From: Bacteroidaceae bacterium
GTDB lineage: Bacteria > Bacteroidota > Bacteroidia > Bacteroidales > Bacteroidaceae
Reading direction: 5' to 3'
Assembly: GCA_017965425.1 (NCBI GenBank)
Contig: JAGCPY010000028.1
Span: forward strand, 1-61,436
Length of the DNA: 61,436 nt
The stretch's first letter is position 1. Every line of letters begins with the position of its first letter. The notes under the pieces were generated by a model that saw only the letters and a list, made by a program, of their open reading frames with translations, had not been told where the DNA came from and did not search any database. The translations under genes were made by a program, and so were the position numbers. Positions 7,068-61,059 of this stretch are shown here, in pieces.

Positions 7068-8060
7068 TCAAATTCCCAACTGCGCAGAAATCTCCAGCAT
7101 CTTGTTAATAGGTCTGACGGCTTTTTCTGCCACTTCAGGACTTACGGACACTACCGGCCACTCATGCTTCAGGCAGAGGTAAAGCTTACGCATGGTGACG
7201 AGCTTCATATACTCACACTCATTGCACATGCAAGTTGAATCGTCGGGCGGAGCAGGGATAAAAGTTTTCTGCGGAGCTGCCTTTTGCATTTCATGGAGAA
7301 TGCCGCTCTCGGTAGCCACAATGAACTCATCGGCCTGGTCATTGATGGCGAACTTCAGCAGGGCAGCCGTGCTTCCTACTTTATCCGCAAGCTTCACAAC
7401 CGGACCTTTGCATTCCGGATGAACGAGTACTTTGGCATAGGGATGTTCACACTTCAACTCAAGAATCTTCTCTACGCTGAAGCGGGCATGAACGTGGCAA
7501 GCACCGTCCCAAAGCAACATGTTCCTGCCTGTGACGGAATTGATGTAGTTGCCTAAATTCTGGTCGGGACCAAAGATAATGGGCGTTTCTGCGGGCAACG
7601 ACTCCACAATCTGACGGGCATTGCTGCTGGTAACAACCACATCCGTCACCGCCTTTGTAGCTGCCGTCGTGTTGACATAGCTGACGACAGTATGACCTGG
7701 ATGTGCAGCCACAAATTCTGCAAAACGGTCTGCCGGACAGCTCTCAGCCAGGGAACAAGTGGCATTGAGGTCTGGAACCAATACCTTCTTATCCGGACAC
7801 AGAATAGCAGCCGTCTCACCCATGAAATGGACACCGCAAAGCACGATGATGTCTGCGTCGGTCTTTGCTGCCTGCTGCGCCAGTGCCAAGCTGTCTCCAA
7901 TGAAGTCAGCCACGTCCTGTACTTCTCCAGGCACATAGTAGTGTGCCATGATGACGGCGTTCTTTTCCTTTGCCATCCGACGGATCTCAGCTTTCAAATC
8001 AATGGCAGGGTCAACAGTTTCGTTGGCATAGCCCGCCTCTATCCATTCAGTTTTCAACAT
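7068..8060 (-). CDS. nadA: Quinolinate synthase A
   Basis: NadA condenses iminoaspartate with dihydroxyacetone phosphate to quinolinate in de novo NAD synthesis, using a [4Fe-4S] cluster. The 330-residue product has the family blocks MAHYYVPGEVQDVADFIGDS, LCGVHFMGETAAIL, CSLAESCPAD, HPECKGPV and STCMCNECEYMKL, with the expected cluster cysteines in the CGVHF, HPEC and CxCNEC regions. No nadB or nadC is adjacent. Its promoter lies at 8147-8154, and the region upstream is shared with divergent cysK. The methyltransferase gene follows 16 bp downstream. Confidence 0.96.
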   Translation of the reverse strand: MLKTEWIEAGYANETVDPAIDLKAEIRRMAKEKNAVIMAHYYVPGEVQDVADFIGDSLALAQQAAKTDADIIVLCGVHFMGETAAILCPDKKVLVPDLNATCSLAESCPADRFAEFVAAHPGHTVVSYVNTTAATKAVTDVVVTSSNARQIVESLPAETPIIFGPDQNLGNYINSVTGRNMLLWDGACHVHARFSVEKILELKCEHPYAKVLVHPECKGPVVKLADKVGSTAALLKFAINDQADEFIVATESGILHEMQKAAPQKTFIPAPPDDSTCMCNECEYMKLVTMRKLYLCLKHEWPVVSVSPEVAEKAVRPINKMLEISAQLGI

Positions 8061-8408
8061 AGTTATATTATATTTGTTCTTTTCTTTTCTCGAAAAAAAG
8101 AGTTAATAATAATAATAATAGGTTGTTCATTCTGTTAATATCTTTGCAAAGGTACGGTTTTTCAGCGAAATACGTTGTCAATAACTCAAAAAAATGTAGT
8201 TGATAAAATGTTTTTATGTGTTCATTCAAACGGCGTGTCATGTGTATGAACTGTTATAAACGTGTTTTTGTTTATTTGTCAACAATAGTATTCAAATATT
8301 ATCGACAAGTTATCAACAGACGAAAATACCATAATTAGGGTATTGTAGGGTTGACGAAAAGTACCGACCTTTGCACCATCAAAATTCACATAACCAAATT
8401 TATTAACT
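8061..8408. promoter_or_regulatory. Divergent nadA/cysK control region
   Basis: This 348-bp A+T-rich gap holds the nadA -7 box TACCTTTG (minus strand, 8147-8154), which overlaps a plus-strand TATCTTTG to form the near-palindrome TATCTTTGCAAAGGTA. It also holds a run of AAT triplets (8106-8120) and a plus-strand ACCTTTG (8367-8373) likely to serve cysK. Scattered TTATCAACA-like words occur, but too few to call an origin. No gene is seen. Confidence 0.55.
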
Positions 8409-56221: not shown

Positions 56222-56758
56222 ATGCAACGTCTCTCAGACATCGCACTCATCGCGCAGGTAGTGACGCTCGGCAGTGAACGGGCTTTCGGACAGTTGGTCC
56301 GTGCCCATCAGGAAGCCGTGCGTCGCTTCCTGCTTCGCCTGACAGCTGGCGATGAGATGCGTGCCGATGACCTTGCACAAGAGACCTTCATTCGTGCATG
56401 GCAAAGCCTCAGCAGCTTTCGGCAGCTCTCAGGTTTTGAGACATGGTTGTTCAAGATCGCCTTTCGCGTGTTCCTCGATGAACAGAGGAAAAGCAAGGAA
56501 ACAGCCGATACCTTTGAAGAAGCCGTCAAAGCTCCGATGCAACCCGAATCTTTTTCCCTTCGATATGATTTGGATAGGGCTCTCTCCACACTTTCTCAAT
56601 TGGAACGCACATGCGTCGTCCTCCAATGCGTAGAGGGGCAAAGTATCAAGGAGATTACACAGATAACAGGAATACCAGAGAATACCGTCAAAAGCCACCT
56701 CCTACGTGGAAAGAAGAATTTAGCTAACTACCTTAGAAAAAATGGATATAATGGATAG
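56222..56758 (+). CDS. ECF-type RNA polymerase sigma factor
   Basis: The 178-residue product has region 2 (about 15-85: AFGQLVRAHQEAVRRFLLRL, then DDLAQETFIRAWQSLSSF and FETWLFKIAFRVFLDEQRK) and region 4 (about 115-170: LSQLERTCVVLQCVEGQS and ITGIPENTVKSHLLRGKKNL). It directs core polymerase to an unknown regulon. It lies between two membrane-protein genes and overlaps the next by 17 bp, which is the usual coupling of an ECF factor to its anti-sigma. Confidence 0.93.
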   Translation: MQRLSDIALIAQVVTLGSERAFGQLVRAHQEAVRRFLLRLTAGDEMRADDLAQETFIRAWQSLSSFRQLSGFETWLFKIAFRVFLDEQRKSKETADTFEEAVKAPMQPESFSLRYDLDRALSTLSQLERTCVVLQCVEGQSIKEITQITGIPENTVKSHLLRGKKNLANYLRKNGYNG

Positions 56759-57200
56759 ATTCAATACGAAAGTTTCCGACGAGCAGCTGATTATCAATTT
56801 CTTTGATCAGCATAGAGAGCCCATCGAAGATAACGGATTCACAAGTCGTGTACTGAATGCGCTACCTCTCTCCGAAAACAGTTGGCAGTCCGAGACAATA
56901 CGTCTGCGTCGATGGTCGCTGTTGCTGAACGTTTTCGGGGTTGCAGCTGGCTTCTTAGTGCTCATCTATTTTGGAGGTTTCTCCCTCGTTTGGGATGGGC
57001 TGGACAATCTCAGCAACCGTTTGCTTGTGGGCATCCTGACTTTCGACTACGACAACATACTCGTGCAGGCAATGCTCTATTTGCATCGCCTGCCAGATAT
57101 GCTGCCGTCATCTACACAACTGCTTGCCCTCGTAGCCACCATTCTGATTTTGACTTTTGAAGGCTTAGGAGCGCTGAAGAACCGAGTCTATTTACGATAG
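56742..57200 (+). CDS. Putative anti-sigma membrane protein (DUF5056-like)
   Basis: The 152-residue product (149 from a second ATG at 56,751) has a cytoplasmic N-terminus with FFDQHREPIEDNGFTSRVLN then ALP (the pattern of Bacteroidota DUF5056-like partners of ECF factors), two or three membrane spans (about 62-82 and 125-143) and a short basic end. The start overlaps the sigma gene by 17 bp. By position it is probably the anti-sigma factor; no classical zinc-ZAS motif is seen. The end overlaps the convergent isomerase gene by 13 bp. Confidence 0.75.
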   Translation: MDIMDRFNTKVSDEQLIINFFDQHREPIEDNGFTSRVLNALPLSENSWQSETIRLRRWSLLLNVFGVAAGFLVLIYFGGFSLVWDGLDNLSNRLLVGILTFDYDNILVQAMLYLHRLPDMLPSSTQLLALVATILILTFEGLGALKNRVYLR

Positions 57201-58262: not shown

Positions 58263-59387
58263 TCACCACCCTTTGGGCAGCACGATAGTCTCTACGTCGT
58301 GAGCCTGTTCAAACAGGGGGGCTATCTCATCGTCCGTGAAGCCAGCGATGCCGCAGCCGATGCGCGTCACGAGGAACGTCAGTTCGGGATGCTGTTTCGC
58401 GAATGCGATGAACTCGTCCACGTAGGGACGAATGGTCTCCACGCCGCCCTGCATCGTGGGGATGGCATAGCTTTGGCCTTGCAGGCCTACGCCCTGTCCC
58501 ATGACGGCGTCGAACTTGCGTAGAGCGATGTAGGCAGCTCCGCCGCCGTGCATACCTCTCAGATTGCTGCCGAACACAAAGACCTCGTTCGGCTCCAGCG
58601 AAGTGATGAACTCTGGTGTTGTTCTCTTCTGTTCCATAATTTCCATTTGTGTAAAATACATATCCTCGTCAGATATTTCGTCCATGATTCCCATTGCCTC
58701 TGGCATCGGCACAGCCAGCTCGTACCGTTCCTCGGCTTGCCGCACTGTCTGCTCTCGCATCTCGGCACGCAGCACTGCCCACTCGTCCATCACCTCCGGC
58801 ATGTCCAGATCCAGATCGAAGTATTTCTTGAAGTAGGGTACAATGATGTTCTCCTTCAGTTTTTTGTATTTCTGCGAGATAGCCGAAGGTGTCATCCCCA
58901 TCTGCTCCGCCACCTCCTTCCCTTTGAAGCCGCGCAGCAACATCAAGTCGATCAGCAGCCTGTCCTCGCGGCTGAGCGGGGCATGGTCGCACACATCCTC
59001 CACCATTCGGTTGAACTGCAATCGCAAGTCGTCCGTTACGTCGAACGACCGCAGATACTCCTCATGGGTGACGCTGCCGTATTCCCTCCGATACCATTTC
59101 AGGGCATCAAGTACCACATAGCGGAACCCGTTGATGAGCCACGTCTTCAGGCTCACGCCTGGCGAATGGTCTTCCAACGGTTTCCAGTCGTGTTCCATCA
59201 GGTAGATGGCATACTGGTGTGCCAGCGACATGAAGTCCAGGTTCTCCTTGCTGCTCAGCTGATAGCGCTGGTCATAGATGAGGTAGCCCGCATGACAGTA
59301 GCCATAGAAATACCTGCGGATGATGTCGGCATTTCCCCTTCGGAAGCCTCGGAGGATCTCTCCTTCTGACAATGATTGATGGTACAT
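58263..59387 (-). CDS. Sigma-like factor fused to a macro-like domain
   Basis: The 374-residue product starts with a sigma-70-like part: region 2 (about 60-100, SLKTWLINGFRYVVLDALKW) and region 4 helix-turn-helix (about 155-185, LLRGFKGKEVAEQMGMTPSA and ISQKYKKLKENI). After an acidic linker, residues about 269-374 form a domain with VFVFGSNLRGMHGGGAAYIA, GQGVGLQGQSYAIPT, FLVTRIGCGIAGFTDDEIAP, which matches macro-like (A1S_2505-type) domains that are predicted to bind ADP-ribose-like ligands. A gene control protein that reads a nucleotide signal is the natural inference. The start at 59,387 is the first Met after the promoter. It is divergent from the VWA gene. Confidence 0.85.
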   Translation of the reverse strand: MYHQSLSEGEILRGFRRGNADIIRRYFYGYCHAGYLIYDQRYQLSSKENLDFMSLAHQYAIYLMEHDWKPLEDHSPGVSLKTWLINGFRYVVLDALKWYRREYGSVTHEEYLRSFDVTDDLRLQFNRMVEDVCDHAPLSREDRLLIDLMLLRGFKGKEVAEQMGMTPSAISQKYKKLKENIIVPYFKKYFDLDLDMPEVMDEWAVLRAEMREQTVRQAEERYELAVPMPEAMGIMDEISDEDMYFTQMEIMEQKRTTPEFITSLEPNEVFVFGSNLRGMHGGGAAYIALRKFDAVMGQGVGLQGQSYAIPTMQGGVETIRPYVDEFIAFAKQHPELTFLVTRIGCGIAGFTDDEIAPLFEQAHDVETIVLPKGW

Positions 59388-59396
59388 ACAGGAAAA

Positions 59397-59451
59397 TTTT
59401 TCCGCGAAAGTACAAAAAAATCTGCTTCCGAGCTTAATTTTTCGCGAAAAA
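59397..59451. promoter_or_regulatory. Divergent promoter region with two TTTCGCG sites
   Basis: TTTTTCGCGAAAAA (59,438-59,451) is a perfect 14-bp palindrome, and TTTTTCCGCGAAA (59,397-59,409) is a near copy on the other side. Read outward, the minus strand has TACTTTCGCGGAAAAA before the sigma-macro gene, and the plus strand has TAATTTTTCGCGAAAAA before the VWA gene. Both have the TA at the same distance, so the sites look like one motif serving two promoters. They could bind the sigma-macro protein. Confidence 0.65.
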
Positions 59452-59514
59452 CATCTTCTAAGAGATAAAGACATGTCGAAAACAGAGTATTCACCCTTCA
59501 AACAAACAACAATT

Positions 59515-60180
59515 ATGAAAACAAAAGAAGTAGCAGCCAAGAGAGTCTTCAACCTGATTATCGTCGATGAGAGCGGTTCGATGTCGATTATCCGCAAACA
59601 GGCCTTTACGGGCATGAACGAAACGCTGCAGACCGTCCGACAGATGCAGAAGAAGTACCCCGACCAGGAGCAGAGGGTCACACTTGTCACCTTTGACAGT
59701 GACCACACCACTTGGCATTACAATGACATCCCTGCACAGCAAACGACAAATCTCAGCTGGGAGGCTTACAGTCCCTGCGGCGCTACGCCACTCTACGATG
59801 CGATGGGCACGGCCATCTCGAAGGTCAATGCCCAGGTGGCAAAAGGTGACAACGTCCTCGTGACCGTCATCACGGACGGCGAAGAGAACAGCTCTCAGGA
59901 GTGGACGCTGACCATGATCCGCACGATGATTGAGAAGCTGAAGAAGCAGCACTGGACGTTCACCCTCATCGGCACCGATAACCTCGACGTCGAGGCCATG
60001 GCACGTTCCTTCGCCATCGACGAGCATCTGGAGTTCCACCAGGATGTCGAGGGAACCCGAAAGATGTTCGAGCGTGAACGCCGCAGCCGTGAGCGTTACT
60101 GCTGTTGCCTGGCCGAGGAAAGAGACATGCCCGTAGGCTCGTTCTTTGAGGACGGCGACGACGTCCCGGATAAGGCGTGA
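59515..60180 (+). CDS. VWA domain protein
   Basis: The 221-residue product is essentially a single von Willebrand A domain with a complete MIDAS: VDESGSMS (D18-x-S-x-S22), the Thr in SPCGATPLYDAMG (about 85-97), and the Asp in VITDGEEN. There is no signal peptide, so it is cytoplasmic and resembles TerY-like stress proteins. A Cys-rich spot (YCCCLAEER) precedes an acidic tail (EDGDDVPDKA). An ATG at 59,473 would add 14 residues; the ATG at 59,515 follows an A-rich leader (AAACAAACAACAATT) like those of other genes here. It is divergent from the sigma-macro gene. Confidence 0.87.
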   Translation: MKTKEVAAKRVFNLIIVDESGSMSIIRKQAFTGMNETLQTVRQMQKKYPDQEQRVTLVTFDSDHTTWHYNDIPAQQTTNLSWEAYSPCGATPLYDAMGTAISKVNAQVAKGDNVLVTVITDGEENSSQEWTLTMIRTMIEKLKKQHWTFTLIGTDNLDVEAMARSFAIDEHLEFHQDVEGTRKMFERERRSRERYCCCLAEERDMPVGSFFEDGDDVPDKA

Positions 60181-60654: not shown

Positions 60655-61059
60655 ATGAAAACAAATTACTTCAAACAAGCACTGGCAACACTCGCGCTGT
60701 TGCTCCTTGCTACCGCAGCCCATGCGTACGATGTGGAGATTAACGGCATCTATTACAACCTAGTGCCAAAAGCCAAACAGGCTACAGTGACCTACACTGG
60801 AGAGGATCCATGGAACCGTAGCTCATACAGTGGTGCAATCCAGATTCCCGCCACAGTGGATAAAGACGGTGTTACCTACACCGTCACCGCTATCGGAGAT
60901 AATGCTTTTTACGGTGCCATCATTACGTCCATTGACATTCCTAACACTGTTACCAGCATCGGTGATTATGCTTTCAATGGCTGTAGTAGTCTGGCCTCCG
61001 TCACCATTCCCAACAGCGTGGCATCCATTGGTTCCGACGCTTTCGTGCATTGTATTTAG
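60655..61059 (+). pseudogene. Truncated BspA-like leucine-rich repeat protein
   Basis: The 134-residue product has a signal peptide (cut near AHA-YDV), the usual N-terminal segment of BspA-type proteins (VEINGIYYNLVPKAKQATVT) and a start of LRR_5 repeats (VTAIGDNAFYG, VTSIGDYAFNGCSSLASVTI, VASIGSDAF). It stops after about three repeats, in VHCI, whereas complete members have many more and a C-terminal tail. The stop falls within a repeat and the next bases do not continue the pattern, so it is probably a truncated gene, though a short secreted protein cannot be ruled out. Confidence 0.7.

Follow-up and report, generated by a model that had tools for sequence, protein, structure and literature searches.

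The window, that is, the whole stretch of 61,436 nucleotides of Bacteroidaceae DNA that was analysed, carries two divergent genes separated by an intergenic region of 127 bp (59388..59514). The gene on the reverse strand (58263..59387) encodes a protein of 374 aa, starting with the ATG at 59387, that joins a sigma-like part to a macro domain, the sigma half being weaker by sequence than the macro half; the fusion posited in the preliminary description is therefore present. A longer frame begins with a GTG at 59711, but homologues begin at or near the ATG at 59387 instead. On the same strand, the ECF-type sigma part spans residues 1-200 (58788..59387), with predicted region 2 at residues ~8-98 and region 4 at residues ~121-190. 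The linker, residues 201-250 (58638..58787), is variable, presents few conserved columns and is predicted with low confidence (pLDDT 32-58 per block). The A1S_2505-type macro domain covers residues 255-374 (58266..58625) and displays the motifs FGSN, HGGG, GQG, IPT and GCGIAG. The sequence facts of the fusion are solid. A scan of a species-genome collection returned 92 relatives, the best 80 of which (60-79% identity) were kept and retain the fusion gene in their loci; hence, the fusion is more than a product of chance.

The gene on the forward strand (59515..60180) encodes a VWA protein of 221 aa that is matched by phrog_7371 (E 8.5e-31). PF00092 scores above cut-off for the VWA homologue of a related locus (L121), and VWA models match the window protein below cut-off only. 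The divergent VWA protein with a full MIDAS described initially was recovered: its D-x-S-x-S, T and D residues (P0002 residues 32-36, 105 and 135, counted from the longer VWA start at 59473) follow what we take to be the MIDAS pattern and are conserved among 66 homologues. The conserved start, however, is the ATG at 59515 and not position 59473, which falls within a conserved dyad. None of the PADLOC models matches the window's fusion or VWA protein, and the genes surrounding the pair look ordinary by eye. At 56222-57200 on the forward strand, ~1.1 kb from where the fusion gene ends, an unremarkable gene for an ECF sigma factor (178 aa) is overlapped by an anti-sigma-like gene downstream of it, and a short forward-strand ORF at 60655-61059 has a leucine-rich, BspA-type look and ends early, as judged by eye.

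The macro domain, its distribution and its partners

The fusion was searched against profile collections, as proposed at the outset. The C-terminal part scored far above the family cut-off with NF049995 (A1S_2505_Nterm; residues 269-374, E 1.1e-42, 144.7 bits versus a cut-off of 45), which makes it a clear member of the A1S_2505 family, to which N4 gp14-like phage proteins also belong, and it also matched PHROG 2072 (residues 248-364, E 2.9e-33); the N-terminal part matched TIGR02937 below cut-off (E 1.1e-7, 31.7 bits, cut-off 42.9). Because the first full-length structural model gave only medium confidence for the macro part (pTM 0.37), a second model was made of the domain alone. Foldseek returned no match with an E of 0.001 or lower for the full-length or the macro-alone model; the folds are assigned by VIA-align Z and, in the macro part, also by the many macro domains heading both lists. 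A macro-superfamily fold is predicted over the whole domain, in agreement with the macro-like character first read from its motifs, and the best structural match of the macro model is an ADP-ribose-bound structure.

In the species-genome scan, the best 80 of the 92 relatives bear the names Prevotella, Prevotellaceae, Xylanibacter, Bacteroidaceae or Bacteroidales, and many are from ruminants; named strains with the fusion include Prevotella ruminicola KHT3, Xylanibacter brevis ATCC 19188 and Xylanibacter ruminicola Ga6B6 (L055, L078 and L084, respectively). Across sampled phylogenetic levels, the fusion was present in 8 of the 61 genomes of the nearest sample (the window's own included), and a near full-length fusion in 26 of 399 family genomes from eight genera (read from the table). 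In the order sample, the window's own genome alone among 393 carried it, the macro domain being common there without a strong sigma match. In the phylum sample, the domain was matched in 5 of 296 genomes (own included), 4 of them above cut-off.

The macro domain also occurs in 405 phage records, none of which spans 80% of the fusion, and five IMG/VR contigs match the fusion. The best phage-record match (L127, filed as 'Bacteriophage sp.') spans 79%, with a fusion running off the end of the record; this short, unverified record seems chromosomal, with sigma and anti-sigma-like genes beside the fusion. Of the phage macro genes examined, one is annotated as N4 gp14-like and one as ADP-ribosylglycohydrolase, and in three phage loci (L128-L130) the A1S_2505 domain forms a short separate ORF, unlike the fusion to a sigma factor seen here. 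Since the loci of the best 80 of the 92 relatives are bacterial genome contigs, the fusion is not classed as a phage gene, a designation retained for the macro domain. By eye, phage-like genes lie near the fusion in L119 and L121, and part of the fusion loci may be carried by prophages. A tree of the macro domain (160 of 253 distinct rows, the sigma and viral rows randomly subsampled) was poorly resolved, 92 of 157 inner branches being open and the sigma label changing 12 times; in a test on 151 rows, 56 of them sigma rows, from which nine long ones had been removed beforehand, a single clade of sigma-fused macro domains could not be rejected (p-AU 0.473).

Partners of the macro domain within the same ORF were assessed in 40 stretches, comprising eight sigma fusions and others chosen mostly for long frames, so that the counts do not represent a rate. 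The domain shares its ORF with VWA in eight cases, with ADP-ribosylglycohydrolase in four, and once each with PARG and with PARG plus ADP-ribosylglycohydrolase; 19 further macro ORFs showed no match to a query domain. Pfam confirms VWA, glycohydrolase, PARG and DUF1810 partners in the scanned examples, the VWA of L200 falling below its cut-off, and a further macro domain is fused to a Nudix domain (L138). Genes for an NrtR-type Nudix regulator, a VWA-macro protein and an ADP-ribosylglycohydrolase stand in a row on one strand in both L198 and L200, and the row of L200 is supported by Pfam and NCBIfam. Separately, macro domains are joined to other, unfamiliar regions at L195 6057-7031, L219 6039-7106 and L218 6055-7194, those of L219 and L218 having no Pfam match; the C-terminal part of L218, L220 and L227 may resemble phage YopX proteins.

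The same families recur in the flanks of the fusion loci. Clustering of flanking ORFs from 88 loci with no preset families returned VWA in 71, Nudix in 13 and ADP-ribosylglycohydrolase in 10, the next cluster reaching 7; a SIR2 protein, found in 3 of the 88, is no commoner than several unrelated families. By tblastn, an ADP-ribosylglycohydrolase lies near 9 of the best 80 loci versus 0.13 expected for the 650 kb of flank, the expectation deriving from 10 profile matches in ~51 Mb (19 genomes of the genus); since the counting methods differ and the loci are related, this excess is an enrichment and not a P value, and it could reflect shared defence islands. Nudix proteins lie near 13 of the best 80 loci, and the two scanned (L038, L121) are short and lack NrtR_WHD. 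On a viral-collection contig (L121), ADP-ribosylglycohydrolase, SIR2 and Nudix genes stand in a row, followed by the VWA and sigma-macro genes, and restriction and methylase genes lie alongside the fusion in L084 and L117. ADP_ribosyl_GH (PF03747) has no match in the window's own genome, and the module is therefore regarded as reduced there. In L043, a second macro domain (8-1161, the stretch starting just before it) is followed directly by an ADP-ribosylglycohydrolase, ~3 kb from the VWA/sigma-macro pair, and in L188 a 387-aa protein with no Pfam or PADLOC match (7193-8356, forward strand) sits between the sigma-macro and ADP-ribosylglycohydrolase genes.

These data bear on whether the macro domain could be an enzyme that removes or converts an ADP-ribose adduct and is tethered to a DNA- or polymerase-binding module, with no regulation of the sigma part. 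The abundance of the domain in the 405 phage records and its pairing with hydrolases in other fusions are consistent with such a role, and the invariant Ser, Asn, His and GCG positions of the domain resemble an active pocket. However, compared with the TARG1 and DarG macro domains, the fusion does not keep the Lys and Asp positions of TARG1: by a weak profile alignment (E 0.035), TARG1 Lys84 and Asp125, which we take to be the catalytic residues, correspond to M312 and A348 in every one of the 61 fusions, and the latter position is Ala also in 73 of 73 rows of the A3 set, a mixture of viral-contig and fusion rows in which position 312 is Lys in 36 of 73. As far as this alignment goes, the domain does not fit a TARG1-type lysine/aspartate hydrolase, an argument that bears on TARG1-type chemistry and leaves room for other chemistry, and we regard the enzymatic reading of the fusion as unlikely.

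The divergent VWA gene and the intergenic region

The pairing with a VWA gene, which the preliminary description expected to be conserved across genomes, was evaluated in the loci of the best 80 of the 92 relatives, minus four that end too near the gene. A divergent VWA gene lies within 400 bp of the fusion gene in 71 of the remaining 76 loci; it is located elsewhere in one, and none is found within the stretch in four. Both outcomes named beforehand as refuting, the lack of a macro-fold prediction and the lack of a conserved VWA neighbourhood, failed to appear, in favour of the preliminary description. Among seven more distant fusions with long flanks, the VWA gene is divergent in L190, L191 and L193, lies ~4.7 kb off in L194 and is missing from L188 and L192. 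In the remaining one, L189, the divergent slot holds a VWA protein from another family (PF00092 E 5.6e-8, above cut-off) and the intergenic element described below is retained; this swap would be hard to explain if no VWA protein were needed there. TerY-type VWA triads include kinase and PP2C partners. The comparison with TerY made at first found no support: inspection by eye of the 28 most frequent neighbour clusters brought up no PP2C-like partner, and one cluster, present in 6 of 88 loci, resembles a small-molecule kinase rather than a TerY partner.

The intergenic region is conserved beyond drift, with a mean pairwise identity of 64% (40 of 78 rows sampled) versus 41% at the fourfold sites of the fusion gene (40 of 74), which indicates that it is selected in relatives. 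It contains a conserved element, AAGA-N11-AAAAATTAAG, on the reverse strand (59433..59457). The core AAAAATTAAG is exact in 57 of the 71 VWA-paired loci and has at most one mismatch in 69 of them, versus 3 of 77 loci with at most one mismatch to the reversed word. In loci without an adjacent VWA gene, the core shows 2 (L038), 4 (L044), 3 (L045) and 4 (L046) mismatches; L052, which still has the start region of the VWA gene, and L083, whose contig ends there, carry it without a mismatch. Where the VWA gene has been relocated (L044 and L194), the element adjoins it at its new position. Among the distant fusions, the element is kept between the genes in L189, L190, L191 and L193, has no match in L192 and is reversed, pointing to the fusion gene, in L188, which has no VWA gene. 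Because of these losses, moves and retentions, the element can be said to track the VWA gene, L188 excepted.

A second feature, the dyad GACATGTC (59470..59477), is replaced at the same place in homologues by other perfect dyads such as AAGACGTCTT and GACTAGTC. Perfect dyads of at least 8 were identified in 37 of the 58 loci scored (78 loci in all), versus 3.3% in a shuffled control. The core of the dyad varies, yet the palindrome stays perfect, as if it were a dimer site in which AGAC half-sites are kept. Upstream of the fusion gene, a housekeeping-type TAnnTTTG is exact in 42 of 78 loci, versus 4.7% in shuffles, but it is taken as a hint only, since it is inexact in the window itself.

A wider regulon for the element was considered and rejected, its matches away from the locus being no more frequent than those of controls. 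In the window's own genome, the 16-bp core with at most two mismatches was matched five times, once at this locus, versus five control matches, and AAGA-N9-12-AAAAATTAAG occurs once, at this locus. In 23 relatives, selected for holding the fusion, 18 off-locus matches were obtained versus 36 for the control, and the element was present at the fusion locus in 19 (read from coordinates).

The simplest inference is that the sigma-macro protein acts on the vwa promoter, since the fusion is the sole DNA-binding gene found conserved at the locus, although the element might be the target of some other regulator. In one rival explanation it is such a target, the VWA protein is an antagonist of the sigma factor (an anti-sigma factor or chaperone), and the macro domain does no more than recruit it. 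The divergent pairing, the VWA-macro fusions and the dyad symmetry of the intergenic region would suit this arrangement. The fusion persists, however, where no VWA gene adjoins it (absent from four and moved in one of the 76 loci; absent also from L188 and L192), and the 28 most frequent neighbour clusters, as far as was noticed, include no further DNA-binding gene, so that we also hold this explanation to be improbable.

The sigma part and a candidate signalling route

Evidence for the sigma part comes from several weak sequence matches and from its predicted structure. Besides TIGR02937, the N-terminal part is matched by phrog_1740 (RNA polymerase sigma factor; E 3e-6), and hhalign aligned fusion residues 67-178 with a small profile built from three of the genome's own ECF sigma factors (E 2e-5, probability 77). 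All Pfam sigma models fall below cut-off for the fusion; the sole Pfam model above cut-off, when the N-terminal part is given alone, is Myb_DNA-bind_6 (24.1 versus 22.9 bits), on the region 4 helices. Two distant fusions give TIGR02937 matches that are also below cut-off (L193, E 2e-9, residues 25-174 on profile positions 10-161; L190, E 3.6e-8). The predicted structure has region 2 and region 4 helices and matches ECF sigma factors, so that by its modelled folds the part would belong with them; because it remains below the TIGR02937 and Pfam sigma cut-offs, we term it ECF-type or sigma-like and do not file it by score. A degenerate sigma-like repressor, whose region 2 and region 4 helices would bind DNA without polymerase engagement, could account for the weak scores, the Myb helix-turn-helix match on region 4 and the low-confidence linker, but region 2 residues are strongly conserved across 61 fusion proteins and distant members such as L193 score better as whole ECF sigma factors, which leaves this the most doubtful of the explanations.

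The reading that we favour, to which we give slightly better than an even chance, combines an ADP-ribose-type ligand with a sigma output on vwa. The fusion would then constitute a one-protein switch from signal to transcription: it would behave like those ECF sigma factors whose C-terminal extension is regulatory, and its place would be in a module for ADP-ribose stress or conflict. What the macro domain reads would be ADP-ribose itself, a derivative of it or a protein that has been ADP-ribosylated. Depending on the state of the domain, to which a bound VWA protein might contribute, the attached ECF-type sigma part would or would not be able to engage RNA polymerase. Transcription from the divergent vwa promoter would follow, and some relatives may use the sigma factor in addition for a cassette that handles ADP-ribose (ADP-ribosylglycohydrolase, Nudix, sirtuin). 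The VWA protein may be a partner that binds proteins in a Mg-dependent manner, either assisting ADP-ribosylated proteins as chaperone or adaptor or regulating the sigma factor in a feedback loop. Tentatively, and with somewhat less than an even chance, the fusions may form a sigma family gated directly by ADP-ribose or an ADP-ribosylated protein through the fused macro domain and firing a VWA-based response; such a family would have a one-step link to RNA polymerase and would sense NAD stress or an attack by ADP-ribosylation, such as might arise when a phage infects the cell. The original proposal of an ADP-ribose- or NAD-linked signal controlling transcription, with the VWA protein as an assembling or sensing partner, holds for its ADP-ribose theme, which the domain fusions and neighbours bear out, whereas we infer the ligand, the direction of control, the promoter served by the sigma output, the role of the VWA protein and the link to phage.

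In the portions of the literature compared here, ADP-ribose-responsive bacterial regulators are Nudix (NrtR) repressors. If the proposed switch is correct, a sigma factor with an ADP-ribose-reading fold would link ADP-ribosylation to the choice of promoter positively and within one protein, and it would offer a clue to what the A1S_2505/N4 gp14-like domain does in phages, where it is common. The idea is testable at the divergent vwa promoter with its conserved element.

Comparison with known systems

By title and abstract, no sigma-macro fusion was found among the open-licence papers listed, in keeping with the preliminary description, which knew of none; the macro part belongs to an already named family. 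The portions of PMC8195603 compared here mention, in the vicinity of ECF sigma genes, macro domains joined to some other protein but no sigma-macro fusion, and those of PMC7824862 treat phage macro and vWA proteins.

Several known systems share part of the arrangement. Several NrtR regulators couple ADP-ribose, the ligand of NrtR, to transcription, and some Bacteroides NrtR relatives bind arabinose, according to the sections of PMC4666351 drawn on. NrtR-type genes stand beside VWA-macro genes in related genomes, but NrtR proteins are Nudix-winged helix repressors of a fold unrelated to the fusion, and since some Bacteroidetes members answer to arabinose (PMC4666351), the NrtR genes found here need not sense ADP-ribose. 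Regulatory C-terminal extensions on ECF sigma factors have precedents in the parts of PMC8999054 used here, and the fusion resembles them in the succession of sigma2, sigma4 and a separate fold possibly gating activity; it differs in that the extension is a macro domain, and the words 'macro' and 'ADP-ribose' are absent from the main text of that review.

A better comparison than TerY is provided by the ADP-ribosylglycohydrolase (ARG)/Nudix-regulator/vWA/Macro systems set out in section 3.8 of PMC9503650. As far as that source was drawn on, these are predicted host systems centred on ADP-ribosylglycohydrolase, in part of which a Nudix or WYL regulator senses ADP-ribose; they include vWA among other chaperones, and Macro, NADAR and restriction parts are added. 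The taxa named there are actinobacteria, planctomycetes and proteobacteria. The words 'sigma' and 'bacteroid' are absent from the main text of PMC9503650. As in those systems, the combination of ADP-ribosylglycohydrolase, Nudix, vWA and macro parts is a recurrent one, a regulator of the sensor type stands beside a vWA gene (a neighbour often, though not always, present in ARG systems), and some fusion loci adjoin restriction genes. Unlike them, the regulator read among the neighbours at the window is a sigma-macro protein rather than a Nudix/WYL repressor, the hosts belong to the Prevotella group, and the window holds the sigma-macro and VWA genes only. The core enzyme, ADP-ribosylglycohydrolase, found near 9 of the best 80 relatives' loci, is lacking in the window's genome, and the locus is therefore not filed as a member of the ARG/vWA systems. 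Relative to what is known, the fusion would work both like the ECF sigma factors that carry a sensory extension (PMC8999054) and like the regulator of an ARG/vWA system (PMC9503650).
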